In this document: positions 6,196 to 21,758 of the stretch, piece by piece
How the letters are laid out: each line of letters opens with the position of its first letter
Numbering within the stretch: position 1 is the first letter of the stretch
NCBI GenBank assembly: GCA_947454705.1
Contig: CANGKZ010000050.1
Coordinates: 1-34,979 of the forward strand
Origin: Verrucomicrobiota bacterium
GTDB lineage: Bacteria; Verrucomicrobiota; Verrucomicrobiia; Limisphaerales; UBA9464
Direction: 5' to 3'
Length of the DNA stretch: 34,979 nt
Translations under genes and position numbers: made by a program
The notes under the pieces: generated by a model
What the model saw: the letters and a program-made list of their open reading frames with translations, nothing else
What the model was told of the DNA's origin: nothing
Databases searched by the model: none

Positions 6196-9045
6196 TCAGA
6201 ACTTCTTGCTCAGCTCGAAGTAGTAGTAGCGGCCCAGCGCGCTGTGCAGGCGGTAGCTGTAGGCGACGTTGGCAAAGTTGGGGCTGAGGTCGAGGGGAGG
6301 GTTGGCGTCCATCACGTTGTTGATGCCGGCGGTGACCTTCACATCCCACGGCAGCTTGTAGGAGGCCTGCACGTCGAAGGTGAGGAAGCTCGCCACGGTG
6401 GCGGGGTCGCCGGTGGCGGGGTTGAAGTAGCCGACACTGCCGATGTAGTTCGCGAAGGCGCTGGCCTGAAGTTTGCGGAATTCCCAGGTCAGGCTGGAGG
6501 TGGCACGCCAGCGGGGGAGTCCGTCGCCGTCGCCGTACGATTCCCGTCCGGCGAGCCGGTTGTAGGTGCCCGATGCCGGATCCAGGACGCGGTAGCTCAA
6601 CAGGTAGGAGGCCGTGGTATCAAAGGTCCAGGTGCCGGCGTTCGCCGTGGGAAGGCCGTAGGTGAGGCGGGCGTCGAGGTAGTCGGCAACGGTGGCACCG
6701 ATGTTGGAGTAGTTGTCGCTGAGGGCTTGCAGGGGGCCCGCACGCAGGCCGGTCTTGGGATCGATCTGCGGGAGCGGCAGCGTCGGGTTTTCGCGGAGAA
6801 AGGTGGCATCGCCTTCATACGGACGCCGGGTGCTGTGGTCCGGTTGCTGGGCCAGGTATTCCGGGCCAAAGAAGTCGTAGGCCGATCCGATCTCGTTGTT
6901 CCGGCTGATTTGGAGCCAGTCCACGCTGGTCCGCAGTCCCTTCAACTCCGAGGGCGACCAGACCATTCCGGCGGTCCACTGGGTTGCCGATTCGGGCTTC
7001 AGGTTCGGGTTGCCGCCGCTCCTGAAATAGACGCTTTCAATCGTGCCTCGCAGCGGGTCGGTGAACCGTTCGGTGCCGGCCTCCAGCGGATGATTGAACA
7101 GCTGCTGGAGGGAGGCAGGGCGGAAGTTTTCGGAATAGGACGCACGCAGCATCACCTCTTCGTTCACCGGCCTCCATTCGATGCCGAGGGTCGGCACGGC
7201 GGAGATGCCAGCGTCGCTGTAGTGTTCCACGCGACCGGCGGCCGTGAGTGTGACGCGGTGAAACGGGATCACATTCCAGTCCTTGCCGGTGATGGGAATG
7301 CGGGTCTCGACGTAGCTGCTCGCGACGTCGCGGGATCCCAGGTCGTGCACGAGGTTCACCCCGGGGAGGCCTTTGCCGATGAGGGTGGTGTCCGGATCGT
7401 CGGAGTACCGTTCCGTCCGGTATTCCAAGCCGGCCGCGTAGGCCACGTCGCCGCCGGGGATTTGAAACAGGTTGCCGTTGGCTCGGGCGTCCCAGGAGAG
7501 GAGGTCGGTGATCGAGACACGCTGCGGGTCGATCACGAGTTTGCGGGCGGTGGCGGGATTGTTGGGAGAGTTCGGGCCGTTGAACAGATTCAGTGCGGTG
7601 GCGGGATTGGGGTCGTTCAACGCGGCCTGAATCTCGTTGAGATTGAATTGCAGCGAACCGGAGCTGTCGGTTTCCGCACGGTTGTAGAGCACGGCGGTTT
7701 CGTAGTTAAAGTGCTCGTTGATCTCTCCGCGAAGTCCGCCGACGAAGCGAATCGTGTCGGTTTTCGCCAGGGTGCCGGAGGCGCCGCTGTCGAAAAGTCG
7801 GATGCGGCCATCGGTGATGTCCACGCCGAAGGGATTGTAGGGATTCTTGGCGGGAATGGTGAGCTGCTCGCCGAGGATGGTGACGCCCTTGTCCACCACG
7901 GTGGTTCCGATCGGAATGCCCGCGCCGTTGCCGCCGCCGAAGAGGTCGAGGCCGAAGGGATTGGTGACCACGTGTTCTTCGAGGTGCCGGTAGGAGAACT
8001 CGGCGAAGGCCTGCAGCTGGTCTTCAAACAGGCGGTGATTCAGCGTGGCGTAGATTCCCTCGCGTTCGGACTTGGGAAGCGCCTGGACGTACTTGGTGCG
8101 GTCGTAACGGTCCGCGTCGGTGAAGTAGTGGTAGTCGCCCGGCTTCGCCTTGCCGTCGGTATTGCGGGGCGGAACGAAATTGGCGAAATCGGTCGAGGTG
8201 GCATCGTAGAACGGGGTTCCGATGAGTCCCGGTGCATTCAACGGAACCGAGAACCGGCCCGGGAATGCGTAGCTGCTCCCGTTGTTGATGCCGCCCAGCG
8301 GGGTGTGGTCCGAGAACGAGGAATAGGTGCGGTCGCGATTGTAGAGGTCGTTCTGATGATAGTAATCGGCCACGACCATGAAGTCGGTCCGGTCGTTGCC
8401 GCCGCCGTAGGTGATCGATCCCTTGGTGGTGCCGTAGTCCTGGTGGACGGTGTTACCGTAGAAGACCCGGAGTTCGCCGCCGCGATAGGAGCGCTTGGTC
8501 TTGATGTTGATCACGCCGGCGATGGCATCGGCGCCATACACGGCGGAGTTGCCTGCGGTGAGAACCTCGACCGAGTCGATGGCTTCGAGCGGCAGGGCGT
8601 TGAGATCGACAAAGGAGATGGTGCCGTCATTGGCCATGCCGTAGGGCGCCACGCGGCGTCCGTTCAAGAGCACCAGGGTGGCGTTGAGTCCCAGTCCGCG
8701 AAGGGAGACGGCGGTCGCGCCCGGAGCGAATCCGAATCCGTTGTTGGACCCGTTGATGCCGGCAGATCCGATCTGCGGAAGACGTTGGAGCAGGTCGTTC
8801 ACCGTGGTGACCCCCATCTGGTCGATCTTGGTCCGGGAATAGATTTCCCCGGGCTGCGCGGTTTCGACTTCCGCGGTGGGGATGTTGGAGCCGATCACCA
8901 CCTGCTTCTTCATTTCGGTTGGTGCCGTGGAGTCGGAAGACTGCGCGAGGAGCAACGGAACCGTAATCAGTTGGACACCCAAACCGACCAGCAGGGAGCG
9001 CCTCGCGGTTTCAATTTGTCGCCGGGTGTGGATCTGGATGGGCAT
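6196..9045 (-). CDS. TonB-dependent outer-membrane receptor
   Basis: This 949-residue outer-membrane transporter has an N-terminal signal segment (about 1-35: a charged start, then a hydrophobic stretch ending LLLAQ). A short TonB-box-like stretch (QVVIGSNIP) precedes the plug domain (about 60-185), which carries VNDLLQRLPQ, SLRGLGLNATLVLLNGRR, IDSVEVLTAGNSAVYGADAI and AGVINI. The remaining 760 or so residues are the beta-barrel, with YRTERYSDD and SYSENFRPAS typical of the family. It ends in an aromatic Phe, the usual BAM signal. The length is normal for the family. It would import a substrate using proton-motive energy via TonB-ExbBD, which are not encoded here. The substrate cannot be told from sequence. 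It is transcribed alone, with a strong terminator behind it and a C-rich leader without a Shine-Dalgarno motif. Confidence 0.93.
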   Translation of the reverse strand: MPIQIHTRRQIETARRSLLVGLGVQLITVPLLLAQSSDSTAPTEMKKQVVIGSNIPTAEVETAQPGEIYSRTKIDQMGVTTVNDLLQRLPQIGSAGINGSNNGFGFAPGATAVSLRGLGLNATLVLLNGRRVAPYGMANDGTISFVDLNALPLEAIDSVEVLTAGNSAVYGADAIAGVINIKTKRSYRGGELRVFYGNTVHQDYGTTKGSITYGGGNDRTDFMVVADYYHQNDLYNRDRTYSSFSDHTPLGGINNGSSYAFPGRFSVPLNAPGLIGTPFYDATSTDFANFVPPRNTDGKAKPGDYHYFTDADRYDRTKYVQALPKSEREGIYATLNHRLFEDQLQAFAEFSYRHLEEHVVTNPFGLDLFGGGNGAGIPIGTTVVDKGVTILGEQLTIPAKNPYNPFGVDITDGRIRLFDSGASGTLAKTDTIRFVGGLRGEINEHFNYETAVLYNRAETDSSGSLQFNLNEIQAALNDPNPATALNLFNGPNSPNNPATARKLVIDPQRVSITDLLSWDARANGNLFQIPGGDVAYAAGLEYRTERYSDDPDTTLIGKGLPGVNLVHDLGSRDVASSYVETRIPITGKDWNVIPFHRVTLTAAGRVEHYSDAGISAVPTLGIEWRPVNEEVMLRASYSENFRPASLQQLFNHPLEAGTERFTDPLRGTIESVYFRSGGNPNLKPESATQWTAGMVWSPSELKGLRTSVDWLQISRNNEIGSAYDFFGPEYLAQQPDHSTRRPYEGDATFLRENPTLPLPQIDPKTGLRAGPLQALSDNYSNIGATVADYLDARLTYGLPTANAGTWTFDTTASYLLSYRVLDPASGTYNRLAGRESYGDGDGLPRWRATSSLTWEFRKLQASAFANYIGSVGYFNPATGDPATVASFLTFDVQASYKLPWDVKVTAGINNVMDANPPLDLSPNFANVAYSYRLHSALGRYYYFELSKKF

Positions 9046-9046
9046 A

Positions 9047-9069
9047 GGGTCGGGTAGGGTGGGGTGGGG
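9047..9069 (+). promoter_or_regulatory. G-quadruplex motif abutting the TonB receptor start codon
   Basis: Five G-runs (GGG, GGG, GGG, GGGG, GGGG) separated by 1-2 bases lie on the plus strand, ending one base from the receptor's ATG. This fits the standard G3+N1-7 quadruplex pattern on the template strand. The mRNA leader is correspondingly C-rich and has no purine-rich ribosome-binding site. A regulatory role is inferred only. Confidence 0.4.
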
Positions 9070-9089
9070 TTGGAACGCCTAGTTTGGAC

Positions 9090-9113
9090 GGATGATTTTT
9101 TTGGGAATCATCC
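9090..9113. promoter_or_regulatory. Perfect inverted repeat upstream of the TonB receptor
   Basis: GGATGATT (9090-9097) and AATCATCC (9106-9113) form a perfect 8-bp dyad with an 8-base spacer. It lies about 45 bases before the receptor start and 118 bases after the phosphatase stop. It may be an operator for a dimeric regulator or a hairpin in the leader. No proper T-tract follows on the minus strand, so termination of the phosphatase transcript is less likely. Confidence 0.4.
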
Positions 9114-9231
9114 ATCCATGCGCAGAGACCCGCCGAAAGGGATCATGCAAACGTATCTTTTTTGAGTCCCGGCACGGCGTGCGGGAGATCGCCCCATTTT
9201 TGGGCAGCGGCGCCGACGGCAGCGGCAGCGG

Positions 9232-10851
9232 CTAGGAGCGACGGATCGCGAGGAGCGTGATGTCGTCGGCCAGCGGGCCGTTGCCGGAGAAGGCGGCGAC
9301 GGAGCGTCGGAGTCCGGCCACCCAGTCGGTCAGCGGGGCATCGGTCGGAAGATCGCGGACGGCTTCGGCGAGGCGCTTCGGACCATAGAGTTCGTTGGGA
9401 TCCGAAAGACCGGGACTTTCTGTGACGCCATCGGTGTAGAGCAGAACGGCATCGCCGGCTTCGAGTTGAAGCACGGCTTCCTCGGAGCGACGGATTCCCG
9501 ATTGCATGCCCAGCAAGGGGGCGCCGCGAAGGGCGATTTCCTCCACGGTGCCGTCGCGCCGGCGTACCAAAACCGGGGGATGTCCCCCGTGCGCAACGGT
9601 CACCCGGCCGAGCGTGTGGTCGTAGATCCCGAAGCAAAGCGTCACGAACATGAAGTTCGGATTGTCGAGGGCCACAGCCTCGTTGAGACCGGCGATCAGG
9701 TCGGCCGGGCTGGTCACTCCCTGGGCGATATGCCGCTCGAGCGCGTGAACGAGGGTCATGAAGAGCGCGGCCGCCATGCCCTTGCCGGAGACATCCGCCA
9801 CGGCGAAGGCGAGCCGGTGATCATCCAGAGGGAAATAATCGTAGAAGTCCCCCGACACCTCCAGCGCGGGATGAAGCGCCGCGGCGAGATCCACCGGACC
9901 GGCGGCGAGCTGGACGGCCTGCGTGGGCAGGTAGCCGAGCTGGATCTCCCGGGCCATGGCGAGGTCCCGTTGCATGCGCTCCGCGCTGAGCAATTCCTGA
10001 TACATCTGCGCATTGTCCAACACGGTGGACACCATCAGGGCGACGGCGGTGAGCAGATATAAATCATCCTGGGTAAACGGCCTTCCCGCCTGAAATCGAT
10101 CGAGCTGCAGTGCGCCGAAAACCTTTCCGGAATGGGTCTGCAGCGGAACGCAGACCAGGGATTGGATGCCCAGCGCATTGAGCGTCATGTTGGCCATGTA
10201 GCTCTGCTCCAGCCGGGTGTCGCTTGCCAGCACGCCCACGCCCTGGTTGAAGACCTTTCGCAGCACGGACCGGCTGAACAGAGGGCCGGAGGGCTGGGCT
10301 TCGCCCCGGTTTTTCAGGGCCCGGACGGTGGGTTCATCCCCATCGCGCAGGAGCACCAGCGCGCGTTCCGCCTCCGGGGACAGGATCAACAACTGCTCCA
10401 GCAGGCGTTGCAGCAGAGTGTCGGTGTCCACCGATCGCCCCAGGTGATGGGCCAGCTGCAGCACTGCCTGGAGCTTCTGTCCGGAATGATCGCGAAACAG
10501 CTCGGCATTGGAGGTCGCGGCCACGGTTTGACGATGGATCGTCATGTCGTGGTCCGGCTTCGCCTCCGCTTCGAGGCGGAAAATGCTGGTGCCGATCCGG
10601 AGCGTGTCACCGGGGCGAAGCTGGCTCCGGGCGGAGATGCGGATGTCGTTGATGAAGGTTCCGTTGCTGCTTCCCAAGTCCTCCACAAACACCGACTCGC
10701 CCTGCCAGGTAATCCGGGCGTGACGCCGGCTCACCGCGGCGGTGTCGAGGGCGACCGTGACATCCCTCTGTCTCCCGACGATGGCGCCTTCCTCGGTCGG
10801 CGTGAGGGTCCGGCCTGCACCAGGGCCGTGGGCGATGTAGAGGCGCGACAT
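9232..10851 (-). CDS. FHA-GAF-SpoIIE (PP2C-type) serine/threonine phosphatase
   Basis: This 539-residue cytoplasmic protein starts with an FHA domain (about 5-95) holding the phospho-threonine pocket signature: GR near 26-27, SRRH 41-44, SSNGT 61-65 and N68. A GAF domain follows (about 140-285; VCVPLQTHSGKVFGALQLDR), then a coiled linker (about 285-305; ERMQRDLAMAREIQLGYLP), which is standard before RsbU-type phosphatases. The PP2C/SpoIIE domain (about 310-539) has metal-binding Asp335 in GDFYDYF, Asp353 in VADVSGKG, Asp474 in YTDG and Asp529/530 in ADD. The frame is open upstream, but the ATG at 10851 begins exactly at the FHA fold. It is divergent from the kinase operon across 168 bases, so it may reverse or read phosphorylation by those kinases. 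An alternative is an RsbU-like anti-anti-sigma phosphatase; no STAS gene is nearby. Confidence 0.92.
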   Translation of the reverse strand: MSRLYIAHGPGAGRTLTPTEEGAIVGRQRDVTVALDTAAVSRRHARITWQGESVFVEDLGSSNGTFINDIRISARSQLRPGDTLRIGTSIFRLEAEAKPDHDMTIHRQTVAATSNAELFRDHSGQKLQAVLQLAHHLGRSVDTDTLLQRLLEQLLILSPEAERALVLLRDGDEPTVRALKNRGEAQPSGPLFSRSVLRKVFNQGVGVLASDTRLEQSYMANMTLNALGIQSLVCVPLQTHSGKVFGALQLDRFQAGRPFTQDDLYLLTAVALMVSTVLDNAQMYQELLSAERMQRDLAMAREIQLGYLPTQAVQLAAGPVDLAAALHPALEVSGDFYDYFPLDDHRLAFAVADVSGKGMAAALFMTLVHALERHIAQGVTSPADLIAGLNEAVALDNPNFMFVTLCFGIYDHTLGRVTVAHGGHPPVLVRRRDGTVEEIALRGAPLLGMQSGIRRSEEAVLQLEAGDAVLLYTDGVTESPGLSDPNELYGPKRLAEAVRDLPTDAPLTDWVAGLRRSVAAFSGNGPLADDITLLAIRRS

Positions 10852-11019
10852 CCGGACCGGGAAGCTACGAAACACCGTCCGCCAATGCCAGTTCAAGGCG
10901 GGTGAAAGTGGACCAATTCTGATCCTCGACGTTGGAGCGCCTTTTTTTTGATACCTCCTGATCCTTTTTGAGGGCGTTTCACGCTTGTTACTTCGCAGCG
11001 CGGCCATCCGCGCCTCCCG
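10852..11019. promoter_or_regulatory. Divergent control region of phosphatase and kinase operon
   Basis: This 168-base gap lies between two outward-facing genes and must hold both promoters if they are not driven from elsewhere. Its centre (about 10940-10970) has two T-rich tracts, CTTTTTTTTGATAC and CCTTTTTGAGG, in otherwise GC-rich DNA. No convincing -35/-10 pair and no clear ribosome-binding site before either start could be identified by eye. Confidence 0.4.
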
Positions 11020-13725
11020 ATGCATTCCGAATCCAGCCCTGACGAGACGATTTTCGCCGCTGCCCTGCAGTGGGAGACGGCGGAGAGCCGTGCCGCGTAC
11101 CTGGACGAGGCGTGTGCCGGGGATCCGGACCTCCGCCGGCGCGTGGATCAACTTCTGAAGGCCGGGGAGGCGGCGCAGACGTTTCTGGAGAGCCCCGCCG
11201 CGCGTGCCCTGGACCCATTTCCGAAGGACAAGAAGGCAGCCCGGAATGAGCCTCCATCCGAGGCGCCGGGCACACGGATCGGCCGGTATAAGCTGCTTCA
11301 GCAAATTGGCGAGGGCGGGTGCGGGACCGTGTTCATGGCCGAGCAGGAGGTTCCGGTTCGGCGGCGGGTGGCGCTGAAGGTGATCAAGCTGGGCATGGAT
11401 ACGAAGTCAGTCGTCGCCCGCTTTGAGGCCGAGCGGCAGGCGCTGGCCCTGATGGATCATCCGAACATTGCCCGGGTGCTCGATGCCGGATCGACTGCGA
11501 CGGGGCGGCCCTACTTTGTGATGGAGTTGGTCCGCGGGATCCGGATCACGGATTACTGCGAACAGAGTCACCTGGGAACCCGGCAACGGCTCGACCTGTT
11601 CGTCCAGGTGTGCCAGGCGATTCAGCACGCGCATCAGAAGGGGATCATCCACCGGGACATCAAGCCTTCGAACATTCTGGTGACGCTCCACGATGGAGTG
11701 CCTGTACCGAAAGTGATCGATTTCGGAATCGCGAAGGCCACCGAGGGACGGCTCACCGATGCCACGCTTTTCACCGCGTTTGAGCAGTTTATTGGAACCC
11801 CCGCCTACATGAGTCCGGAGCAGGCGGAGATGAGTGGGCTGGATGTGGACACCCGCTCCGACATCTACAGCCTGGGGGTTCTGTTGTATGAGCTGTTGGC
11901 GGGAAAAACGCCGTTTGATGCGAAGCAGTTGATGTCCTCCGGACTCGACGCCATGCGGAAGACCATCCGGGAACAGGAGCCCGCTAAGCCCAGCACGAAG
12001 CTGAGCGAGACCCTGATGGCCTCGGAGCTGGCGCATCGAAGCGCGGGTGGCGGGAAGGGTTTGGGTTTGGGGCGGATCGACGATTCGCGTCAGCGGCTTC
12101 GGGAGCTTCGCGGGGATTTGGATTGGATTGTGATGCGGTGCCTGGAGAAGGACCGGACGCGGAGATATGAAACGGCCAATGGGCTTGCGTCGGACCTTCA
12201 GCGTCACCTGGCCAACGAGCCCGTTCTGGCGCGTCCCCCGAGTGCGGCCTACAAATTACAAAAGGCATTCCGGCGCAATCGGCTCGTTTTCACTGCAGGC
12301 GGGATTGTCTTTGTGGCCCTGTCGATCGGCATTGCCTGCAGTTTGTGGCAGGCCGTTCGCGCCCATCGTTCGGCCCAACGAGCGCGTCAGGCGGAGTTTC
12401 TGGCCCGCCAACGGCTGGACGAATCCGAAGCGATCTCGAAGTTCATGACCGAGGTCTTTCAGAGCCCGGATCCCGCGAAGGACGGACGTACCATCACGGT
12501 GGTTGAAACCCTGGGTGCGGCGGCGAAGCGGTTGGAAGCCGAGCTGAAGGCTCAACCGTTTCGCAGAGTTCAGCTGCAGGCGACGCTGGGCAAAACCTTC
12601 TTCGGGCTCGGCCTTTTTCCAGAAGCGATCGCTTTGCAGGAAAAGGTTCACGATTGGTACGTGCAAAATCGTGGCCCGAAGGCTGAAGCGACATTGCTTG
12701 CCCTGATGGCTCTTGCGCGGTCCTCCATTTACTCGGATCGCAGCCGGCAGGTTCAGACGCCAGGGCTTTGGAGGACGGTGTATGATGGCCTTGCAGCGCT
12801 GAAAGGACCGGATGATCCCGCAACCCTGGAGGCGGAGGCCGGGCTGATTGATGCATTCGAACTGAATCAGGGACCGCCGGATTTGCTGGAGCGGTCTCAG
12901 AACCTGCTGGAACGAAGGCGGCGCATTCTCGGGGAACGACACGAAGCCACGATCTTTTCGATGGGGCAGGTGGCGCGGATGCTTTCACACCGGGGGCGTT
13001 CCAAGCAGTCCGTCGAGATGAGCCGGGAGATGCTCCGTCTCCAACATGGCCCCGGGGGAGCGGCAACCCCCGACGCAATCTCCACTGCGTTGAATCTGAG
13101 CGCGTTTCTAAGCGAAATCGGGAGCACCGATGAGGCCGGACGATTGATCGAGGAATATCTTCCCAAGTCCCGTGAGATCCTTGGGCCGGATCATGTGCTT
13201 TCCATTGCATTCGAGGGAAACCTCGCTGCGAACTATCTGGAGCGCGGTCGCGATGCAGAAGCCTATGAAATGATCCGGAAGAGCTACGAACGTGAAGAGC
13301 GAATCCGGGGAGCCGAATCCCCGGTTGCGTTGACGCTGCAGATGCTTTTGGCGACGGCGAGTGCACGACTCGGTCATGAGGACGAAGCGCTCCGGTTGGG
13401 GGGGGCAGTCGTCTCGACGCGTCGACGAGTGGATGGCCCCGGGTCGGGGCGAACGCTGGAAATGATGACGGAGTTTGCGGAGGTTAATCTGACCCTCGGT
13501 CGGGTTGCCGCTGCGATTGCCTTGGCTGAAGAGGCGCTCTCGCTCGAGCGTTCCCGGCAGGATTTGATGGAGACTCTGGTTCAGAAGACCATGAATGTGT
13601 TGAACAAATGCTACGAGCGGGCGAACCGAATCTCCGATGCGGATGCCATCCGTAAGGAGCTTGAGCAGCTTACCTCCAAAATCTCGAAATCGACGCGTGC
13701 CGATAGAGAGGCGCCCACTCCATGA
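11020..13725 (+). CDS. Transmembrane Ser/Thr protein kinase with TPR tail (paralog 1)
   Basis: This 901-residue protein is a Hanks-type kinase followed by a sensor tail. A short N-terminal module (DETIFAAALQ, then RRRVDQLLKAGE) is shared with the next two genes. The kinase domain (about 86-400) has the glycine loop IGEGGCGTVF, Lys120 in VALK, HRDIKPSN (His211, Asp213, Asn218), DFG 234-236 and GTPAYMSPEQ. A membrane helix spans about 421-442. After it comes a conserved segment (SEAISKFMTEVFQSPDPAK) and then TPR-like helices to the end, with repeated PNxA/LGxxxEA patterns. The kinase should be cytosolic and the TPR part periplasmic. It is the most divergent of the three paralogs and has a Gly-rich insert near 340-352. 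Its stop codon overlaps the next start by ATGA. Confidence 0.93.
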   Translation: MHSESSPDETIFAAALQWETAESRAAYLDEACAGDPDLRRRVDQLLKAGEAAQTFLESPAARALDPFPKDKKAARNEPPSEAPGTRIGRYKLLQQIGEGGCGTVFMAEQEVPVRRRVALKVIKLGMDTKSVVARFEAERQALALMDHPNIARVLDAGSTATGRPYFVMELVRGIRITDYCEQSHLGTRQRLDLFVQVCQAIQHAHQKGIIHRDIKPSNILVTLHDGVPVPKVIDFGIAKATEGRLTDATLFTAFEQFIGTPAYMSPEQAEMSGLDVDTRSDIYSLGVLLYELLAGKTPFDAKQLMSSGLDAMRKTIREQEPAKPSTKLSETLMASELAHRSAGGGKGLGLGRIDDSRQRLRELRGDLDWIVMRCLEKDRTRRYETANGLASDLQRHLANEPVLARPPSAAYKLQKAFRRNRLVFTAGGIVFVALSIGIACSLWQAVRAHRSAQRARQAEFLARQRLDESEAISKFMTEVFQSPDPAKDGRTITVVETLGAAAKRLEAELKAQPFRRVQLQATLGKTFFGLGLFPEAIALQEKVHDWYVQNRGPKAEATLLALMALARSSIYSDRSRQVQTPGLWRTVYDGLAALKGPDDPATLEAEAGLIDAFELNQGPPDLLERSQNLLERRRRILGERHEATIFSMGQVARMLSHRGRSKQSVEMSREMLRLQHGPGGAATPDAISTALNLSAFLSEIGSTDEAGRLIEEYLPKSREILGPDHVLSIAFEGNLAANYLERGRDAEAYEMIRKSYEREERIRGAESPVALTLQMLLATASARLGHEDEALRLGGAVVSTRRRVDGPGSGRTLEMMTEFAEVNLTLGRVAAAIALAEEALSLERSRQDLMETLVQKTMNVLNKCYERANRISDADAIRKELEQLTSKISKSTRADREAPTP

Positions 13726-16379
13726 CTCCCAATCGCGAAGAGACGCTTTTCGCCGCGGCGCTTGAGCTGCCCGCGGGAGAACGTGTGGCGTATCTGGCCC
13801 GCGAGTGCGGAGCGGATGGGGCCCTGCGTGCCCGCGTGGCGGCGCTGTTGGCGTCGTACGACGCAACCGCGAATCCGCTGGTGACCCAGTTTCAGTCGAG
13901 CGAAGCCCCGGTGCCCGGATTGAACTTCGCGGAGGACGACCGGGTGGGGCAGATGCTGGGTCGGTATAAACTCCTGGAGAAGCTGGGCGAAGGCGGCTGC
14001 GGGGTGGTGTACGTGGCGGAGCAGACAGAACCGGTGCGTCGTCGCGTTGCGTTGAAGGTGATCAAACTTGGGATGGACACCAAACAGGTGGTGGCCCGGT
14101 TTGAAGCGGAACGTCAGGCGTTGGCGCTGATGGATCATCCGAACATCGCCAAGGTGTTGGATGCCGGAACCACCGAAGCAGGACGTCCGTTCTTCGTGAT
14201 GGAACTGGTTCGTGGAATCCGGATCACGGATTATTGCGATCAAACGAATCTGAGCACGCAGGAGCGGTTGAACCTGTTCATCAAGGTGTGCCAGGCGATC
14301 CAGCACGCGCATCAGAAGGGAATCATCCACCGGGACATCAAGCCCTCGAACATCCTGGTGACGCTGCACGATGGAGTTCCTGTACCGAAAGTGATCGACT
14401 TCGGCATTGCGAAGGCGACGGAGGGGCGCCTGACCGAGGCCACGGTGTACACGCAGTTGAATCAGTTCATCGGAACTCCGGCGTACATGAGTCCGGAGCA
14501 GGCGGAGATGAGCGGACTCGACATCGATACCCGCAGCGATATCTACAGCCTCGGAGTGCTTCTCTACGAATTGCTGATTGGAAGGCCCCCCTTTGATCCG
14601 AAGGAGTTGATGTCGCTGGGGCTGGATGCGATGCGGAAGACGATCCGCGAGCGGGATCCGGCACGTCCGAGCACGAAGCTGGCGACGCTGGCGACGCTGG
14701 AGGCAGAAGAATTGACCACAACAGCAAAACGCCGAGCGACGGAGACGTCGAAGCTGGTGAGCCAGTTGAAGGGGGATCTGGACTGGATCGTGATGAAGTG
14801 TCTGGAGAAGGACCGGACGCGTCGCTACGAGACGGCCAACGGGCTGGCCTCGGACATCACGCGGCATCTCACCAATGAGCCCGTGGTGGCACGTCCGCCG
14901 AGCGCCAGGTACAAGCTTCAAAAGGCGTTTCGGAGAAACAAGCTGGTCTATGTGGCGGGCACGGTGGTGTTCGTGGCGTTGATGCTGGGAGTGATGTTGA
15001 GCGTCTGGCAGGCCGTGCGGGCGCAGCGGGCGGAACAGTTCGCGCGTCAGCGACTGGAGGAGTCGGAGGCGATCTCGAAGTTTATGACCGAGGTCTTCCA
15101 GAGCCCGGATCCCGCCAAAGATGGAAGGACCATCACGGTGGTTGAAACGTTGGGAGCTGCGGCGAAGAAGTTGGAGAAAGATCTCGAATCGCAACCCGAG
15201 CGACGCGCGCAGCTTCAGGCCGTGCTGGGACAAACCTACGCTTCTCTCGGGCTTTTTGCCGAAGCCACGCAGATGGAGCGAAGGGTTCATCAATTCTATC
15301 TCTCCACGAGCGGGCCTACCCATACCAACACCCTCAATTCAGCGTTGCGGTTGGGGGCTGGGCTCGGAGCCGCGAATCCGAAGCAGATCCCTGAGGGCCT
15401 CGAACTTTTGCAACGGGCGGTTGCAGAGTATCGCCGGCAGTATGGTTCGGACCATCCGGCGACCCTTAAGGCCATGTTGAAGCTGTCCGGTGGGTTGAGG
15501 GAATTCGGCGATCGAAAGGAAGCGTTGGACGTGGGGAGGGATTTGTTGGAACGGCAGCAACGGATCCTCGGTTCGGAGCATCCGGAGACCATTCAGAACA
15601 TGTCCAATGTCGCGGCCATGCTGATGCTCTTCGGCAACACGACGGAAGCGGTGAAGCTGAGCGCGGAGGCGCTTCGTTTGCGACGCAAGTTGGATGGACG
15701 TCCCACGCCTGCCCTGTGTGAAGCCATGTGGTCACACTCCTTCTGTCTTACCCAGGCGGACCAGATCGCTGAAGCCTCGAAACTGTCGGAGGAGCTCTTG
15801 CCCATGCTGAGAGAGATCATGGGACCGGAGAACTCTGCCGTGCTGAGTTTGATGGTCAACATGACGGCGGACTATATGACCCTGAATCGTCTGTCCGACG
15901 CCCAGCGAATGGCTCAAGAGGCCTATGATCTGGGAATGCGGGTTCAAGGACCCAAAAGCGGCATAGTAATCAATTCACTGGGAAACCTGTCCCAGGTGCA
16001 CGCACGTTTGGGACACGGTGACGAGGCCGTACGCCTGGGGGAACAGGTGCTCGCAACCTGCCGAGCGCTGAACGGCCCCGATGGCGAGATGACCTTGCAG
16101 GCCCTGACAGAGCTCGGGCGAACCTGCCTGATGGTGAATCGAATTCCGGAGGCGATTGCGTATGCCGAAACGGCATTAAAAGCGGGACGCCCTCAACTGC
16201 CTGCCATGGCCAACGAGACCACCATTACGATGCGTCTCTTGATCGAGATCTATGAGAAAACGGGCGACGCCTCGCGACGCGCTGCCTTGACCAAGGAGTT
16301 GGATCGCTTGACTGCGACGCTCAATTCGACGTCCACCACGAATCAGGTTCCGTCCAAGGGAACCGCCGCAAAACAATGA
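13722..16379 (+). CDS. Transmembrane Ser/Thr protein kinase with TPR tail (paralog 2)
   Basis: This protein of 885 residues has the same architecture as its neighbours. The N-terminal module ETLFAAALELPAGERVAYLA is followed by the kinase domain (about 80-385) with GEGGCGVVYVAE, Lys112, HRDIKPSN (His203, Asp205, Asn210), DFG 226-228 and MSPEQ. The membrane helix lies at about 408-429, the SEAISKFMTEV segment just after it, and then TPR-type helices. The kinase half is nearly identical to that of the next gene, while the TPR half is clearly different. A 9-bp in-frame duplication in the linker (14681-14698, giving ATLATL) is absent from the third kinase. The start codon overlaps the previous stop, and the stop overlaps the next start (ATGA at both ends), so translation is probably coupled. 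Confidence 0.93.
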   Translation: MTPNREETLFAAALELPAGERVAYLARECGADGALRARVAALLASYDATANPLVTQFQSSEAPVPGLNFAEDDRVGQMLGRYKLLEKLGEGGCGVVYVAEQTEPVRRRVALKVIKLGMDTKQVVARFEAERQALALMDHPNIAKVLDAGTTEAGRPFFVMELVRGIRITDYCDQTNLSTQERLNLFIKVCQAIQHAHQKGIIHRDIKPSNILVTLHDGVPVPKVIDFGIAKATEGRLTEATVYTQLNQFIGTPAYMSPEQAEMSGLDIDTRSDIYSLGVLLYELLIGRPPFDPKELMSLGLDAMRKTIRERDPARPSTKLATLATLEAEELTTTAKRRATETSKLVSQLKGDLDWIVMKCLEKDRTRRYETANGLASDITRHLTNEPVVARPPSARYKLQKAFRRNKLVYVAGTVVFVALMLGVMLSVWQAVRAQRAEQFARQRLEESEAISKFMTEVFQSPDPAKDGRTITVVETLGAAAKKLEKDLESQPERRAQLQAVLGQTYASLGLFAEATQMERRVHQFYLSTSGPTHTNTLNSALRLGAGLGAANPKQIPEGLELLQRAVAEYRRQYGSDHPATLKAMLKLSGGLREFGDRKEALDVGRDLLERQQRILGSEHPETIQNMSNVAAMLMLFGNTTEAVKLSAEALRLRRKLDGRPTPALCEAMWSHSFCLTQADQIAEASKLSEELLPMLREIMGPENSAVLSLMVNMTADYMTLNRLSDAQRMAQEAYDLGMRVQGPKSGIVINSLGNLSQVHARLGHGDEAVRLGEQVLATCRALNGPDGEMTLQALTELGRTCLMVNRIPEAIAYAETALKAGRPQLPAMANETTITMRLLIEIYEKTGDASRRAALTKELDRLTATLNSTSTTNQVPSKGTAAKQ
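13890..14990 (+). repeat. Long direct repeat, unit 1 (kinase domain of paralog 2)
   Basis: The DNA from the end of the N-terminal module to the membrane helix is closely matched, base for base over long runs, by 16547-17638 in the next gene. The offset is 2657 bases before the 9-bp duplication and 2648 after it. Boundaries are approximate. Confidence 0.8.
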
Positions 16380-19300
16380 CGAATCCGAATCGCGAAGAAA
16401 CCCTGTTCGCCGAGGCGCTTGAGTTGCCTGCGGGGGAGCGTGTGGCGTATCTGGCCCACGAGTGCGGATCGGATACGGCCCTGCGCGCCCGCGTGGAGGC
16501 GCTGCTGGCGTCGTACAACGCGACCGCGAACCCGCTGGTGACGCATATTCAGTCCGCAGAAGCCCCAGTGTCCGGATTGAACTTCGCGGAGGACGACCGG
16601 GTGGGGCAGATGCTGGGCCGGTATAAACTCCTGGAGAAACTGGGCGAAGGCGGCTGCGGGGTGGTGTACGTGGCGGAGCAGACGGAACCGGTGCGTCGTC
16701 GGGTTGCACTCAAAGTGATCAAGCTGGGAATGGACACCAAACAGGTGGTGGCCCGGTTTGAAGCGGAACGTCAGGCGCTGGCGCTGATGGATCATCCGAA
16801 CATAGCCAAGGTGTTGGATGCGGGAACCACGGAAGCAGGACGGCCGTTTTTTGTGATGGAACTGGTTCGTGGAATCCGGATCACGGATTACTGCGATCAA
16901 ACAAATCTGAGCACACAGGAGCGGTTGAACCTGTTCATCAAGGTGTGCCAGGCGATCCAGCACGCGCATCAGAAGGGGATCATCCACCGGGACATCAAGC
17001 CATCGAACATTCTGGTGACCCTGCACGATGGAGTGGCGGTGCCCAAAGTGATCGACTTCGGCATCGCCAAGGCCACCGAAGGCCGCCTGACCGATGCCAC
17101 GGTGTACACGCAGTTGAATCAGTTCATCGGAACTCCGGCGTACATGAGTCCGGAGCAGGCGGAGATGAGCGGACTCGATATTGATACCCGCAGCGACATC
17201 TACAGCCTCGGAGTTCTTCTCTACGAATTGCTCACCGGGAAGACGCCGTTTGACGCCAAGGAGTTGATGTCACTGGGGATCGATGCGATGCGGAAGACAA
17301 TCCGCGAGCGGGATCCGGCACGTCCGAGCACGAAGCTGGCGACGCTGGGGGCAGAGGAACTGACCACAACAGCAAAACGGCGTGCAACGGAGACTGCGAA
17401 GCTGGTGAGTCAGTTGAAAGGGGACCTGGACTGGATCGTGATGAAGTGTCTGGAGAAGGACCGGACGCGCCGATACGAGACGGCCAACGGGCTGGCTTCG
17501 GACATCACGCGACATCTCACCAACGAGCCCGTGGTGGCACGTCCGCCGAGTGCCAGTTACAAGCTTCAAAAAGCGTTTCGGAGGAACAGGCTGGTCTATA
17601 CCGCGGGCACGGTCGTGTTCGTGGCGTTGACGTTCGGAGTGGTATTGAGCGCCTGGCAGGCGGTGCGCGCGGAGCGTGAGGCGAGGCGGGCGCAGCGGGC
17701 GGAACTTGCGGCGACCCGGCGGCAGACGGAAGCCGAGGCAATCGCAAAGTTTATGACCGAGGTCTTCCAGAGTCCTGAACCCGGCCGTGATGGCCGTGCG
17801 GTCACGGCCGCGGAAATGCTCGGGGCTGCGGCGAAGAAATTGGAGACCGATCTCTCCGGACAACCAGAACGGCGCGCACAACTTCAGACGACGTTGGGGG
17901 CAACCTATTTTTCGATGGGGCTCTATGATGAGGCCATCCCCATGTTTGAACGAGTTCGTGACTACTACCTCGCAGGCTCGGGCCCCGAGCACACCAATAC
18001 GATCGAGGCGATGCATCGCCTGGGGGATGCCTACAAGATGAGTGGACGCAGGGTGGAGTCCGTCAAACTTATGCGTGAGGTGCTGCGCCTGCGGCGTCAA
18101 ATCAATGGCCCGGAGCATCCTGCAACTCTTACTGCAATGGACTCTTTGGCAGTAAATGAGTCAAAAGATCCGGTCGAGCAAAAGGAGGCAGTCGAGCTCC
18201 TGGAAAGCGCGCTCGCGTCGAGCCGCAAGGTTATGCCGCCGGCATCGCCCCTGACCCTGCGCATCATGCACAATCTGGCGCTCTCCTACCGCAAGATCGG
18301 CAAGATCGAGAAATCTGTGCCAATGCAGGAAGAGGTACTGCTGCAGTGCAGGAAAAAATTCGGTAATGAGAATCCGCAGACAATCCGGGCGATTCAGACC
18401 ATGGCTCACTATTACGAGGACAGCGGTCGAGTGGCGTTGGCACTCGATCTTCGCGAAGAGCAGCTTCGGCTCAGCCGGAAGGTGCTGGGGCCTGAGCATC
18501 CTGGCACCCACGCTGCACTCGGGTTTTTGAGGTACACCTATTCTATTGTTGGGCGATATGAAGAAGCCTTCAAGCTGGCGGATGAATGCCTTGCGCTGGT
18601 CAACCGGATCGATGGCCCCGAGAGTCGTTCGACTTTGCATGATATGCGGGAGGCTGCAGAAATCACGCTGCGGTCGGGTCGAGTGGATGAAGCGATCAAG
18701 CGGTATGAGAATCTCGTTGCTCTCCAAAACAAGGTGGATGGTCAGGAACATCCCGCCACCCGTCGATGCATGCGGGAATTGGCGCATGCCTATTTCGCGG
18801 CGGGGCGCAAAGGGGACGCCGTGGAAATGCTCAATCGGGTGACGGCGCTGCGTGTGACCGATGAGGCTGGCTCGATCGCGCGTCAGTGGCTCGCCATCTG
18901 GCAAGTATGGACAGGCCAAACCGGAGACTATGAAGCGATGCGACGCCAATGGGTGCAACAGACCGAGGGAGGCGAGGATCCGGGCGTCGTTGAACGCGCT
19001 TCGAAATCGTTTCTGCTGCGACCTTCGACCGACTCGGAACTTACGTCGAGGGCGCTCAAACTCGCCACGAAAAGTGCGGAGCGATATATGACCGATCCGT
19101 GGATGCTGACGACTCTCGGATTCGCCCAATATCGTAACGGACTGTTTGCCGAGGGGGAGCGGAACTTACTGACGGCGCAACGGATGGCTGGACCCACGCA
19201 TTTTGACACCGTCACGGTGGCGCGAATGGTTCGCGTGATGTGTCTTGTGAGGCTGGGACGCCTGGATGAATCGAGACGCCTCTTTCGCGAAGCGGAGGCG

Positions 19301-19438
19301 GCGATGCTTCCAATGTCGACGGATGAAAGCCGTCCCTTCTCGGGCAAAAGGTTGGCATTTCCGGACGAGTTGATCGGCTGGCTGGCCTACAAGGAAGCCC
19401 GGGCCCTGTTGGCGGAAGCGGCCGCCGTGAAGCCGTGA
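16376..19438 (+). CDS. Transmembrane Ser/Thr protein kinase with long TPR tail (paralog 3)
   Basis: At 1020 residues this is the longest of the three kinases. The N-terminal module (ETLFAEALELPAGERVAYLA) leads into a kinase domain with GEGGCGVVYVAE, Lys113, HRDIKPSN (His204, Asp206), DFG 227-229 and GTPAYMSPEQ. The membrane helix lies at about 406-427. The tail has at least ten TPR-like helical pairs, many with the HPxTxxAMxxLA or LGxxYxxxGRxxEA pattern, and a C-terminal extension (ESAERYM-like, FAQYRNGLFAEGERNLL) that the other two lack. The post-membrane segment differs at several positions (FQSPEPGRDGRAVTAAEMLG). It overlaps the previous gene by ATGA, and its TGA lies inside a possible GTG start of the sigma factor. 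The sensory ligand is unknown. Confidence 0.93.
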   Translation: MTNPNREETLFAEALELPAGERVAYLAHECGSDTALRARVEALLASYNATANPLVTHIQSAEAPVSGLNFAEDDRVGQMLGRYKLLEKLGEGGCGVVYVAEQTEPVRRRVALKVIKLGMDTKQVVARFEAERQALALMDHPNIAKVLDAGTTEAGRPFFVMELVRGIRITDYCDQTNLSTQERLNLFIKVCQAIQHAHQKGIIHRDIKPSNILVTLHDGVAVPKVIDFGIAKATEGRLTDATVYTQLNQFIGTPAYMSPEQAEMSGLDIDTRSDIYSLGVLLYELLTGKTPFDAKELMSLGIDAMRKTIRERDPARPSTKLATLGAEELTTTAKRRATETAKLVSQLKGDLDWIVMKCLEKDRTRRYETANGLASDITRHLTNEPVVARPPSASYKLQKAFRRNRLVYTAGTVVFVALTFGVVLSAWQAVRAEREARRAQRAELAATRRQTEAEAIAKFMTEVFQSPEPGRDGRAVTAAEMLGAAAKKLETDLSGQPERRAQLQTTLGATYFSMGLYDEAIPMFERVRDYYLAGSGPEHTNTIEAMHRLGDAYKMSGRRVESVKLMREVLRLRRQINGPEHPATLTAMDSLAVNESKDPVEQKEAVELLESALASSRKVMPPASPLTLRIMHNLALSYRKIGKIEKSVPMQEEVLLQCRKKFGNENPQTIRAIQTMAHYYEDSGRVALALDLREEQLRLSRKVLGPEHPGTHAALGFLRYTYSIVGRYEEAFKLADECLALVNRIDGPESRSTLHDMREAAEITLRSGRVDEAIKRYENLVALQNKVDGQEHPATRRCMRELAHAYFAAGRKGDAVEMLNRVTALRVTDEAGSIARQWLAIWQVWTGQTGDYEAMRRQWVQQTEGGEDPGVVERASKSFLLRPSTDSELTSRALKLATKSAERYMTDPWMLTTLGFAQYRNGLFAEGERNLLTAQRMAGPTHFDTVTVARMVRVMCLVRLGRLDESRRLFREAEAAMLPMSTDESRPFSGKRLAFPDELIGWLAYKEARALLAEAAAVKP
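16547..17638 (+). repeat. Long direct repeat, unit 2 (kinase domain of paralog 3)
   Basis: This is the partner of 13890-14990. The high DNA similarity stops soon after the membrane helix, where the TPR parts diverge. That pattern fits recent duplication or ongoing gene conversion limited to the catalytic half. Confidence 0.8.
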
Positions 19439-19449
19439 GTTCTTCCTCC

Positions 19450-20013
19450 ATGAGTGATGTAACCCAGATCCTGAGTGCGGTTCGAGCGGGCGATGAAGCG
19501 GCTGCGGGGCAGTTGTTTGAACTCGTGTACACCGAGCTCCGGCAGGTCGCGGCTCAAAAGATGGCGGGAGAGGCCGTTGGTCACACGCTTCAGCCCACCG
19601 CATTGGTGCACGAGGCGTGGCTGCGTCTTGGTGCGGATGCACAACCGCACTGGCAGAACCGGGCGCATTTCTTTTCCGCGGCGGCGGAGGCGATGCGGCG
19701 CATCCTGGTGGACCGGGCCCGGCGCAAACAGGCGCTGCGCCGCGGTTCGGGCGCGGAGCACATTGATGTCAACGGCGAGGGATTCGAGATCGCCGGGCCT
19801 GCCGATGACGAGCAACTGCTGCGCCTGAATGAAGTGCTCGATCAGTTCGTGGCCATCGAACCGCAGAAGGCCGAACTGGTGAAACTGCGATACTTCGTCG
19901 GGCTCTCCGTGGAACAGGCCGCCCTGGTGTTGAATGTTTCAGAACCCACGGCGAAACGCTGGTGGGCGTACTCCAAGGCCTGGCTCTATCGCGAAATGAA
20001 GGGCAAGGAGTGA
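19450..20013 (+). CDS. ECF-type RNA polymerase sigma factor (TIGR02999-like)
   Basis: This 187-residue sigma factor directs RNA polymerase to a target promoter set. Region 2 shows LVYTELRQVAAQKM, TALVHEAWLRLG, and FFSAAAEAMRRILVDRARRK, all hallmarks of the TIGR02999 family. Region 4 shows KLRYFVGLSVEQAALVLNVS followed by TAKRWWAYSKAWLYREM, the promoter -35 binding helix-turn-helix. The ATG at 19450 gives the usual family start (MSDVTQIL). A GTG at 19435 is in frame and overlaps the kinase stop by GTGA, copying the overlap style of the two upstream junctions, so it remains possible. No anti-sigma gene is adjacent; the three upstream kinases are the likely regulators. In ECF43 (EcfP of Vibrio) a partner kinase activates the sigma factor by phosphorylation; the same here is inference. 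Confidence 0.92.
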   Translation: MSDVTQILSAVRAGDEAAAGQLFELVYTELRQVAAQKMAGEAVGHTLQPTALVHEAWLRLGADAQPHWQNRAHFFSAAAEAMRRILVDRARRKQALRRGSGAEHIDVNGEGFEIAGPADDEQLLRLNEVLDQFVAIEPQKAELVKLRYFVGLSVEQAALVLNVSEPTAKRWWAYSKAWLYREMKGKE

Positions 20014-20140
20014 GGTAGGAGTGGAATTAAAAATTGGGAATGAGAAATTAAAAATGGGAGAGCGGAGGATCGCAGATGGGAGATCGGAGGATGCCGGATG
20101 CTGGATGCTGGGCTTCGTGGGACACCTTGGGCCGCGGGCC

Positions 20141-20184
20141 TTTGGAGTGCGGTGGCAGAGCGCAGCGTCGACACCGCTTTCGAG
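20141..20184 (+). repeat. REP-like hairpin repeat, copy 3
   Basis: The head TTTGGAGT is followed by a stem GCGGTG (20149-20154) pairing with CACCGC (20172-20177) across GCAGAGCGCAGCGTCGA, then TTTCGAGC. It faces the inverted copy at 20296-20325 and shares its head with the pair at 185-308. Confidence 0.6.
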
Positions 20185-20295
20185 CACGTTCACTGAATCA
20201 AACCGACCGGTCCGGTTGAGTTGGTTTCAAGAATGAGATGCTCACTGCGGTTTCGTGGTTCTCTAATTTTGGATCCAAGTCCTATTCGAACCCTT

Positions 20296-20325
20296 CAAAG
20301 CGCCAGAGGACTGGCGCACTCCAAG
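20296..20325 (-). repeat. REP-like hairpin repeat, copy 4 (inverted)
   Basis: On the minus strand this reads CTTGGAGT, then a perfect 7-bp hairpin GCGCCAG - TCCT - CTGGCGC, then TTTG. Together with copy 3 it forms an inverted pair about 185 bases across. Confidence 0.6.
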
Positions 20326-20360
20326 ACGCTGTCGCGACCTCGTTCCCCGCGCGGCGACAT

Positions 20361-20401: not shown

Positions 20402-21742
20402 TCAGGCCATTTCGAGGCCGCGCATCGTTCCGGTGGAGGAGGCAAACTTGTCCGATTCGATCCCCATCCGCTGGAGCATGGAGACAAATAGGTTGGGCAG
20501 CGGATAGTTCCGCTGGGTGTCGAATGCCAGATGCTGCCCGTGCTTGAATCCGCCACCCGCAAATAGAATGGGCAGATTCGTGGTCACGTGGGTGTTGGCG
20601 TTCCCCAGATTGGAACCGTAGAGAATCATCGTCCGGTCCAGCAGGGTGTCGCCCTGTTCCTTCACCCGCTTGAGCTCGGTGAGCATTCCGGAGATCAATT
20701 GCATGTGCCAGAGGTCGATCGCCTTCAACTGCGCGATCTTGGCCTCGGAGCGTCCGTGGTGGGAGAGGTTGTGGTAGGCCTCGGTCAGCTTGGTGTCGCC
20801 GAGTTCGATCACCGGCGAGTTCACGCTGTCGAGCAACAGCGCGATGGACCGCGTGGAATCAGTCTCGAAGGCGAGTCGTGCGAGGTCGTACATCAGCCGC
20901 ACTTTTTCCATGTAGTCGCGCGGACTCTCGGGATCGAGCGGGACGCTGGCCGACACCGCGGGCTTCGGCTTGCGCTCCCATTCGCGCGACATCTGCATGC
21001 GCTGCTCCAGTTCGCGCACGCTGGTGAAGTATTGGTCGAGACGGTCGCGGTCCGCGCCGCTCACGTTCTTCTTCAACGTGGTGGCCTGGCCCGCAACGGC
21101 GTCGAGGATGCTCTGGCCGAGTTCGAGTTTGCGGACCTGGTTCTCCGTCTCCGCGGCACTGCCTTGGAGGAAGAGCCGACGGAACACGTCCGACGCCTTT
21201 TCCTCGCACGGAATCAGAACCCCGGAGCCGGTCCAGGAAAGGCTCCGCGCCCCGCGGTCCACGTTCACGCCGAGGTTCAGCGAAGGAAACCGGGTGAGGT
21301 GGCCGATGCGTTCGGCGATGTATTGATCGAGCGAGATGGTGTTGCGGAATCCGCCGCTGCCCGGGTGCGGGGCCGCGGTGAGGAAGCAGTTGTCGGCGGG
21401 ATGGCCGCCATCGACGTCCGGATGCGACACGCCGCTGAACACGGTGAATTGATCCCGGTGATCGCGAAGCGCCTCAAGATAGGGCGACGGCGTGTATCCG
21501 CGGCCGGTGGTCTTGGGAAAGAACTCCTCGGGAAGCAGGCCGAGGTTGTTGCAAATCGCGAACATCCGCCGCGGGGTTGCCGGGGCCTTTTCCGCGCCGC
21601 GCGCGAAGGCCGGGGACATGGATTCCAGGAACGGCAGCGAAAGCGCGATGCCGCTCCCCACCAGGAAGCGCCGACGCGACAGCGCCTGCCGAGTGGAAAC
21701 AAACGGCATGCGCACGGAGGATTCGGAGGGAATGGGCTTCAT
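20402..21742 (-). CDS. DUF1552 family secreted protein (Tat signal)
   Basis: This 446-residue protein belongs to the DUF1552 family, common in Planctomycetes and Verrucomicrobia and of unknown biochemical function. A twin-arginine signal is visible at about residues 22-45 ([20 protein letters not shown]), so it is probably exported folded. Family stretches include [44 protein letters not shown], and a C-terminal part with YHNLSHHG and [15 protein letters not shown]. That C-terminal half resembles the alkaline-phosphatase/sulfatase-like fold of DUF1501 proteins. The ATG at 21742 follows the DUF1592 gene by 16 bases, so the two form an operon; a later ATG (11 codons on) is also possible. The fixed pairing with DUF1592 suggests a shared periplasmic oxidative or degradative process. 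Confidence 0.9.
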
Positions 21743-21758
21743 GGGGGCGTTGTTGAAT

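Follow-up and report, generated by a model that had tools for sequence, protein, structure and literature searches.

An ECF43-type locus in a Verrucomicrobiota bacterium with three TPR kinases, one sigma factor and a predicted promoter before a TonB-dependent receptor gene

The window analysed here is a stretch of 34,979 nucleotides of DNA from a Verrucomicrobiota bacterium (GCA_947454705.1, contig CANGKZ010000050.1). ORF and domain scans recovered the five genes that the initial annotation had described, a phosphatase gene divergent from three kinase genes and an ECF sigma factor gene. The kinases are encoded on the forward strand at 11020..13725 (kinase 1, 901 aa), 13722..16379 (kinase 2, 885 aa) and 16376..19438 (kinase 3, 1020 aa) and are followed by the sigma gene at 19435..20013 (+, 192 aa), with a 4 bp overlap at every junction from kinase 1 through the sigma gene (11020-20013). 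This gene run contains no anti-sigma gene, as had been claimed. A sigma-70 promoter scan gave 0 sites in 10700-11200 and 0 in 19900-20500, and terminator-like sites in 19900-20500 number 3 vs 0.6 expected. Beyond the phosphatase lies a gene for a TonB-dependent receptor (6196..9045, reverse strand; Pfam Plug 5.5e-20, barrel 2.5e-33); a forward-strand ORF at 6244-9057 was rejected as the gene at this position. DUF1552 and PSD/cytochrome genes, assigned by family matches (20402..24443, reverse strand), form a conserved flank outside the module, which is convergent with the sigma gene in genome G007 (L248) and lies near the phosphatase in G006 (L114).

The phosphatase ORF spans 9232-11304 on the reverse strand and matches FHA (5.9e-19), GAF (6.8e-11) and SpoIIE/PP2C (5.6e-45) domains, the FHA and SpoIIE domains being aligned over almost their full length. 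Because the first TTG of this long ORF falls inside kinase 1 and the FHA domain starts just past an internal ATG at 10851, the sequence indicates that translation probably begins at that ATG, giving a protein of 539 aa (9232-10851) and a gap of 168 bp to kinase 1.

The sigma factor matches PF07638 (3.2e-55) and TIGR02999 (5.4e-63), both above the cut-offs, and we equate this family with ECF43 from the shared motif and kinase linkage rather than from a group model. The initial annotation had proposed an alignment with ECF43 to look for a replaced acidic motif in region 2.2, and this is what the alignment revealed: QPTALVHE takes the place of the DxxDxxQE of ordinary ECFs (the ECF43 consensus is QTTA), the motif Thr is present in 69/69 aligned rows (from 68 sequences, as that of the window is counted twice), and the fourth motif position is A in 68/69 rows. 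Hanks-type kinases adjoin the sigma gene without an anti-sigma gene, as in ECF43, here as three overlapping kinase genes. The codon of the motif Thr, Thr55 when numbered from the GTG, is at 19597..19599 (+); this residue is the equivalent of EcfK Thr51 and a predicted phosphorylation switch. In the accessible text on X. citri EcfK, a T51A variant is still functional, T51 and a linker Thr each being enough on its own (PMC13147305), and for this reason Thr55 may by analogy be not the only or not the main switch. Comparison of the sigma factor with PDB sequences gave none at E <= 0.01.

All three kinases have the same layout, an N-terminal helical domain, a Hanks kinase domain, one hydrophobic segment and a C-terminal TPR tail that is longer in kinase 3; the helical domain, the kinase domain and the single segment agree with PknS-type ECF43 kinases, the transmembrane segment (within about residues 405 to 449) being assigned by hydropathy only. 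Pkinase matches range from E 1e-46 to 5e-46, and the motifs VALKV, HRDIKPSN, DFG and SPEQ are present in each. Kinases 2 and 3 belong to class B of the tree, where they are sisters (support 99/86); their kinase domains are 93-100% identical (77-85% at the third codon positions of that region), while their far TPR tails are only 24-29% alike.

The N-terminal domain, of about 55 aa, is common to all three kinases and to PknS, a proven ECF43 kinase. An HMM of this domain, trained without the kinases of this genome, matched six ECF43-locus kinases at E 1e-18 to 1e-26 and 0/22 other kinases examined (best E 0.42), in a test that took in 28/30 kinases of the genome. A profile search of the whole genome likewise gave 6 matches, and among the kinases examined the only carriers are the six kinases of two ECF43 loci. 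Across 58 genomes, 116/150 listed domain matches lie on the same strand within 10 kb of an ECF43 sigma gene, counted against the 135 stronger sigma matches listed, and per-genome counts of domain and sigma factor, again for the matches listed, correlate with rho 0.87. By these sequence counts the domain is linked to ECF43 loci, and it is probably the site at which the kinases dock the sigma factor. A fold search with the domain model gave no match at E <= 0.001; therefore nothing is drawn from its fold.

Several kinases per sigma factor are rare but recurrent (7/109 loci), and the genome itself has a second three-kinase ECF43 locus. At least one kinase is found in the gene run at 69/92 distinct sigma loci and none at 23, of which 14 sit at an end of the stretch compared; counting by gene run misses broken frames, so that G020 has 2 kinases by run and 4 by domains. 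The initial annotation had not recognised three kinases per sigma factor with a linked phosphatase as a described arrangement. We found no paper on this set in a search mostly outside the subscription literature. Neither several kinases per ECF43 sigma factor nor an ECF43 promoter motif was found described in the literature covered, which included the accessible parts of PMC13147305, PMC8999054, PMC8103513 and PMC11032199 and few subscription papers.

A motif of fixed spacing, TGATCCNTTT-N13-CGCATGG, precedes the kinase operon in this genome and in those of relatives; we use it below as TGATCCYTTT-N13-CGCATGG. The predicted operon promoter (10959..10988, +) lies 31 nt upstream of kinase 1 and has 2 mismatches to the pattern. 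The only exact match in the genome (5.45 Mb) is the predicted promoter TGATCCCTTTCGGCGGGTCTCTGCGCATGG (9116..9145, reverse strand), 70 nt upstream of the ATG of the adjacent receptor gene, which makes this receptor a predicted sigma target. G007 has an 88% identical receptor beside its kinases, with a 1-mismatch copy of the motif upstream. Three further 2-mismatch matches in the genome (L254-L256) have no convincing gene downstream, and its C18 locus had no match in the upstream comparison and only a weak one in a later scan.

In 58 genomes the motif has 29 matches at <=1 mismatch, 19 of them within the 9 genomes with a close sigma factor, which also hold all 10 exact matches; altering the spacer by one base gave 7 and 3 matches, 0 of them in these 9 genomes. 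An exact match is present in 8/9 genomes with a close sigma factor vs 0/49 of the others (p = 4.7e-9), a comparison that is partly circular for 5/8 genomes besides our own. The motif was discovered from upstream regions of G000, G004, G006, G007, G010, G013 and G017, where matches are not independent, and the independent genomes of the clade are G003, G014 and G020. Of the matches that played no part in discovery, those in G003, G020 and G047 precede ECF43 kinases, and one in G013 stands 203 nt upstream of the sigma gene; in G014 the exact motif faces a divergent gene and the kinase has a poorer site. As a control, the reversed pattern includes CTAG and probably errs on the lenient side, and the motif-site table files the window and several discovery loci as having no sigma seen, through duplicate removal. 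Order-wide, 57/293 genomes have a match at <=1 mismatch, and an ECF43-type kinase lies downstream at 3/27 new loci examined (of 55 matches outside the first 58 genomes). We set this search aside as weak out-of-sample proof, and because of the 3/27 the exact motif appears to be specific to the clade. Another regulator could be its reader; that the sigma factor reads it is our inference.

That the phosphatase is a fixed part of the module, as first proposed, is not borne out. It is present in 2/9 genomes with and 5/49 without a close sigma factor (p = 0.30; 58 genomes), and in 9/50 genomes of the family (8 plus the one in G007, which matches partially, at the end of a contig). A SpoIIE-type gene lies within 10 kb of 3/92 sigma loci, the window among the three. 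The predicted sigma motif was absent upstream of the phosphatase in the genome scan and the upstream comparison; G006, of the same genus, keeps the phosphatase with no sigma factor and only a kinase-1 remnant; and the neighbourhoods L117, L119 and L199 examined have no ECF43 kinase or sigma gene near the phosphatase. We therefore rejected it as a conserved general partner of the sigma factor, whose presence it does not track. That a small FHA protein is the shared element was also rejected and stays a lead: among the 92 sigma loci such proteins occur within 10 kb only in operons of G020 (L047/L157) and G017 (L077), two of the three survey rows being the same L077 gene. The distribution of the phosphatase and the missing motif make it unlikely that all five genes form one loop, in which the kinases write and the phosphatase, bound to phospho-threonine of the kinases or of the sigma factor, resets them. 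In favour of such a loop, FHA and SpoIIE domains are nearly complete, phosphatase and kinase 1 are close divergent neighbours, and the gene stays beside the operon within the genus (G000, G006, G007): in G007 it shares the locus but is separated by the receptor, and in G006 it lies next to the kinase-1 remnant. In G025 an ECF43 kinase-sigma pair is also found on the same strand, about 8-11 kb from it. Known substrates of SpoIIE-type phosphatases are STAS proteins, and the enzyme resembles the RsbU/SpoIIE type in its SpoIIE catalytic domain with GAF. It is a serious possibility, which we hold tentatively, that it serves a STAS partner-switching route elsewhere and merely shares the neighbourhood, as its scattered distribution and varied neighbours suggest. 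Against this, no STAS match was found beside it, the scan being confined to ORFs of the window above small size, and it carries an FHA domain, which classical enzymes of this type are not known to have. As a neighbour at the locus, the phosphatase may reset or read the kinases, its link to the module being uncertain and not obligatory.

For the kinases, near-identity of kinases 2 and 3 in the kinase domain, decay in G006 and broken frames in G020 would fit redundant duplicates, only one of which contacts the sigma factor, in a transient array. We find this doubtful, since four genomes from two genera (G000, G007, G004 and G020) have the same order, a first kinase of a different sort and then class B ones, the tails diverge strongly while the kinase domains stay alike, and all three kinases keep catalytic motifs and N-terminal domain. 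Least probable, and in our view very unlikely, is a sigma factor that binds polymerase constitutively and is controlled by level only, the kinases acting elsewhere: a self-regulation motif upstream of the operon would suit it, but region 2.2 lacks the acidic motif, its Thr is invariant, and the relatives EcfP and EcfK depend on their kinase in the portions of PMC8999054 and PMC13147305 available.

Taking together the gene layout, the missing acidic motif, the conserved Thr, the tie of the N-terminal domain to ECF43 loci, the recurrent arrays and the fixed-spacing motif, all read from sequence, we consider it likely that 11020-20013 encodes an ECF43-type signalling unit: three sensor kinases act on a single phospho-activated sigma factor, which drives its own operon and the receptor, the phosphatase being not obligatory. 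The catalytic domain of each kinase would be cytoplasmic and its TPR array probably periplasmic. A signal, presumably received by the TPR tail, would activate any one kinase, which would dock the sigma factor through its N-terminal helical domain and phosphorylate Thr55; the phosphate would supply the negative charge absent from region 2.2 and so allow RNA polymerase binding. Active sigma factor would then read TGATCCYTTT-N13-CGCATGG, switching on its own operon in positive feedback and the adjacent receptor gene. More tentatively, kinase arrays with a docking domain and interchangeable tails could feed one sigma factor, its operon and the receptor as a many-inputs, one-output circuit for nutrient uptake with a clade-specific promoter.

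The locus would be a several-input version of an ECF43 system. It supplies a candidate docking domain, which PknS shares and the other kinases examined in the genome lack, as well as a defined promoter sequence and a predicted target for it. With these, whether signals are integrated on a phosphorylated sigma factor can be tested directly in E. coli, using few genes. The ECF43-kinase pair is well described, with one kinase for each system in the accessible parts of PMC13147305 and PMC8999054. In EcfK/PknS of Xanthomonas citri (ECF43), as far as the available text goes, the sigma factor likewise has a region 2.2 Thr and lacks DxxD, with QATE where QPTA stands here, but there is one kinase instead of three and the sigma factor controls a type VI secretion cluster (PMC13147305). 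PknS (PDB 9EED), a membrane-bound Hanks kinase, has the N-terminal helical domain as well: kinase 2 matches PknS over residues 5-383 (phmmer 3.5e-59), and the domain HMM scores 32.7 bits on the PknS stretch in a test that took in 5/7 plasmid records. EcfP of Vibrio parahaemolyticus (ECF43) is inactive without a phosphorylated motif Thr (STTA), a likeness predicted here, while EcfP/PknT, likened by description, has one kinase and a polymyxin response (accessible parts of PMC8999054 and PMC13147305). The expanded TPR/WD40 Ser/Thr kinases of Planctomycetota are similarly single-pass, with C-terminal TPR or WD40 arrays predicted to be periplasmic, although the theme of the available text is kinase expansion and not sigma-linked arrays (PMC11032199). 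The kinase-sigma pairing is of an already known kind, and it is the several-kinase arrangement and the predicted promoter that open this locus to testing.

All five genes proposed to form one phospho-signalling module were found in the window by ORF and domain scans: a phosphatase (9232-10851, minus strand), three kinases (11020-13725, 13722-16379 and 16376-19438, plus strand) and a sigma factor (19435-20013, plus strand). The genome containing them comprises 5.45 Mb in 80 contigs, and the closest named records by sigma protein are Verrucomicrobiota metagenome assemblies with 72-80% identity. From kinase 1 through to the sigma gene, each gene overlaps the next by 4 bp, which argues for a single transcript. 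The FHA domain of the phosphatase begins immediately after the ATG at 10851, so its gene, likely shorter than its reading frame, need not overlap kinase 1. Catalytic motifs are retained in all three kinases, each of which has one hydrophobic segment between the kinase domain and a TPR tail predicted to be periplasmic by analogy with like kinases of Planctomycetota (PMC11032199, in the part available).

Region 2.2 of ordinary ECFs reads DxxDxxQE; its ECF43 counterpart is QTTA-like, and the Thr in it is phosphorylated (PMC13147305 and PMC8999054, in the parts available). The replaced acidic motif that the initial annotation had proposed looking for is present: the window's sigma has QPTALVHE at these eight positions, making it ECF43-like by sequence. 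The Thr is invariant in a 69-row alignment (68 sequences, the window's own entered twice); at other motif positions, E stands fourth in one sequence and first in one. The linker between the sigma domains contains several Asp and Glu residues, so that, judging from this single sequence, the second site known from EcfK may carry a permanent charge. Weak PF07638 matches near other kinases on four further contigs of this genome (C68, C1, C14 and C20), three of the four with zinc-ribbon-like N-termini and the one on C1 with an acidic region 2.2-like motif, may represent further kinase-linked ECF groups.

The N-terminal part of the kinases gave no match in a Pfam scan. We built an HMM of this domain from 61 relatives, excluding the window's own genome. 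All six kinases of that genome's two ECF43 loci match it, and none of the 22 other kinases examined does; a whole-genome profile search likewise returned six matches. Among the matches listed for 58 genomes, the numbers of domains and of sigmas per genome rise together (rho 0.87): both occur in 43 genomes, the sigma only in one, the domain only in three and neither in 11. A same-strand sigma lies within 10 kb of 116 of the 150 domain matches listed (88 of them within 1.5 kb), and some of the other 34 are on contigs ending beside the kinase (G007, G004). In the five of seven plasmid records compared, the domain was found in an ECF43-linked planctomycete kinase (1.6e-19) and a Gemmatirosa kinase-like frame (6.2e-16). 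Persicobacter, Pseudoalteromonas and one Eleftheria kinase gave weak matches (1e-4 to 4e-3); the second Eleftheria kinase gave none. An AlphaFold2 model has three helices (7-16, 21-31 and 36-57; mean pLDDT 75.8, core about 90). We infer that this is a sigma-docking domain; the term "docking" does not occur in the main text of the PknS paper as available (PMC13147305). On sequence grounds the domain appears diagnostic for PknS-like kinases of ECF43 loci.

Several kinases per sigma is an uncommon arrangement. Among the matches listed, 109 sigma loci have at least one N-terminal domain no more than 12 kb away on the strand of the sigma: 102 have one, four have two, two have three (both in the window's own genome) and one has four (G020). 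By gene runs, 92 sigma loci have one kinase (58), none (23, of which 14 are at the end of the fetched stretch), two (6) or three (5, two rows being two sigmas of one run). The second three-domain locus, on contig C18 (L219, G000:C18:10000-29900, at 6888-19436), has its own ECF43-type sigma gene, placed first, and three kinases; about 2 kb upstream is a gene with response-regulator and SpoIIE similarity (2965-4815). In a tree of 31 kinase domains, kinase 1 groups with the kinase that comes first in G007 (100/99). Kinases 2 and 3 pair (99/86) and are joined by the second kinase of G007 (97/89). These three belong to class B, nine rows (97/92) into which the three C18 kinases and the later ones from G004 and G020 also fall, and the order of a first-type kinase followed by class B is repeated in G007, G004 and G020. 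A "class A" was defined by the common start DETIFAAALQWET or near variants; as a tree group it is unsupported, the first kinases of G003, G004, G010, G013, G014 and G020 forming an open group (90/31) with kinase 1 outside. Tails diverge between kinases whereas kinase domains remain alike, and a WD40 frame replaces TPR downstream of the kinase-1 remnant of G006, so by sequence the tails seem exchangeable. That remnant (L114, G006:C37, 3293-4779) retains the N-terminal domain and lacks the kinase domain, with the WD40 frame in a different frame, and could be a true deletion or an assembly fault. In other kinase-sigma operons, small FHA proteins, hydrophobic over a stretch near the C-terminus, directly precede the sigma (L047/L157 in G020, L077 in G017), and a PEMT/ICMT-like methyltransferase lies between kinase and sigma gene in G003 (L048, 14855-15430).

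Comparison of upstream regions yielded a motif, TGATCC, 17 bases and CGCATGG or a near form. It lies upstream of the first kinase in G004, G006, G007, G010, G013, G017 and the window; the window and G007 also have it upstream of the TonB-dependent receptor. It was not seen for G003 or G014 in this comparison. Its spacing and constant orientation are compatible with a -35/-10 pair. Searched as TGATCCYTTT-N13-CGCATGG, the window's own genome has a single exact match, upstream of the receptor (9116-9145, minus strand), and no match with one mismatch; the operon site (10959-10988, plus strand) is one of four with two mismatches. Allowing up to three gives 63 matches, so that weak matches are uninformative. 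A search of 58 genomes that allowed one mismatch at most gave 29 matches. Nineteen come from the nine genomes with close relatives of the window's sigma, and all ten exact matches are in eight of those nine. With both blocks kept and the spacer of 13 changed to 12 or 14, there were seven and three matches, none in the nine. Matches outside those that defined the motif lie upstream of ECF43 kinases (G003, G020, G047) and of a sigma (G013); in G007 they precede a kinase start that is broken and the gene of a DUF5122 protein. Others are inside reading frames, such as one each in G007 and G010. With the tested site left out of the matrix, four of 12 kinase-first loci outside the discovery set scored at least 15, against two of 240 control windows, and in six of the 12 the best site ends 18-28 nt before the domain and scores 12.7-24.9 (control median -10). 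This co-occurrence points to the window's sigma as the probable reader of the motif. Order-wide, 57 of 293 genomes have a match, and three of 27 new loci examined (from 55 new matches) have an ECF43-type kinase downstream; outside the clade the pattern is uninformative.

The phosphatase did not hold its proposed place in one conserved module. Full-length relatives occur in eight of 50 family genomes, with a partial copy at a contig end in G007. The locus is common to genus members: G007 has phosphatase, receptor and two kinases on one contig and sigma, DUF1552 and PSD genes on another; G006 has phosphatase, the remnant and DUF1552/PSD with no sigma present, possibly through an assembly fault; and in G001 (54% complete) the phosphatase adjoins the same response regulator and hybrid kinase as flank the window. 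Outside the genus its neighbours vary; in G033 the phosphatase comes after a different, WD40-type kinase, and in G025 it is 8-11 kb from an ECF43 pair. In the 58 genomes it showed no association with the close sigma (2/9 with, 5/49 without, p = 0.30), and of 92 sigma loci, three, the window among them, have SpoIIE-type genes no farther than 10 kb away. We therefore treat the phosphatase as a neighbour, possibly functionally involved, and not as a defining part.

A signal received at the TPR tail would activate the kinase, which would phosphorylate Thr55 of the sigma; the phosphorylated sigma would then bind polymerase, and the operon and TonB-dependent receptor would be transcribed. A receptor of this type hints at a nutrient or surface cue. 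Adjoining its gene are a hybrid histidine kinase that matches Reg_prop and a response regulator of the LuxR type (549-5716), which suggest a nutrient-sensing neighbourhood.

The initial annotation did not recognise the arrangement as one already described. This stands for the array of several kinases per ECF43 sigma, of which a literature search of partial coverage found no description, and not for the core, since an ECF43 with a kinase is an already known kind. The most useful new leads are the promoter with its receptor target and the kinase N-terminal domain. The nearest solved chain to the window kinases is 9eed, named as an X. citri PknS construct (PMC13147305, in the part available), in which the N-terminal region is absent from crystal density and predicted helical. 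The match extends over the N-terminal part, so the likeness of the window kinases to X. citri PknS takes in this region as well.
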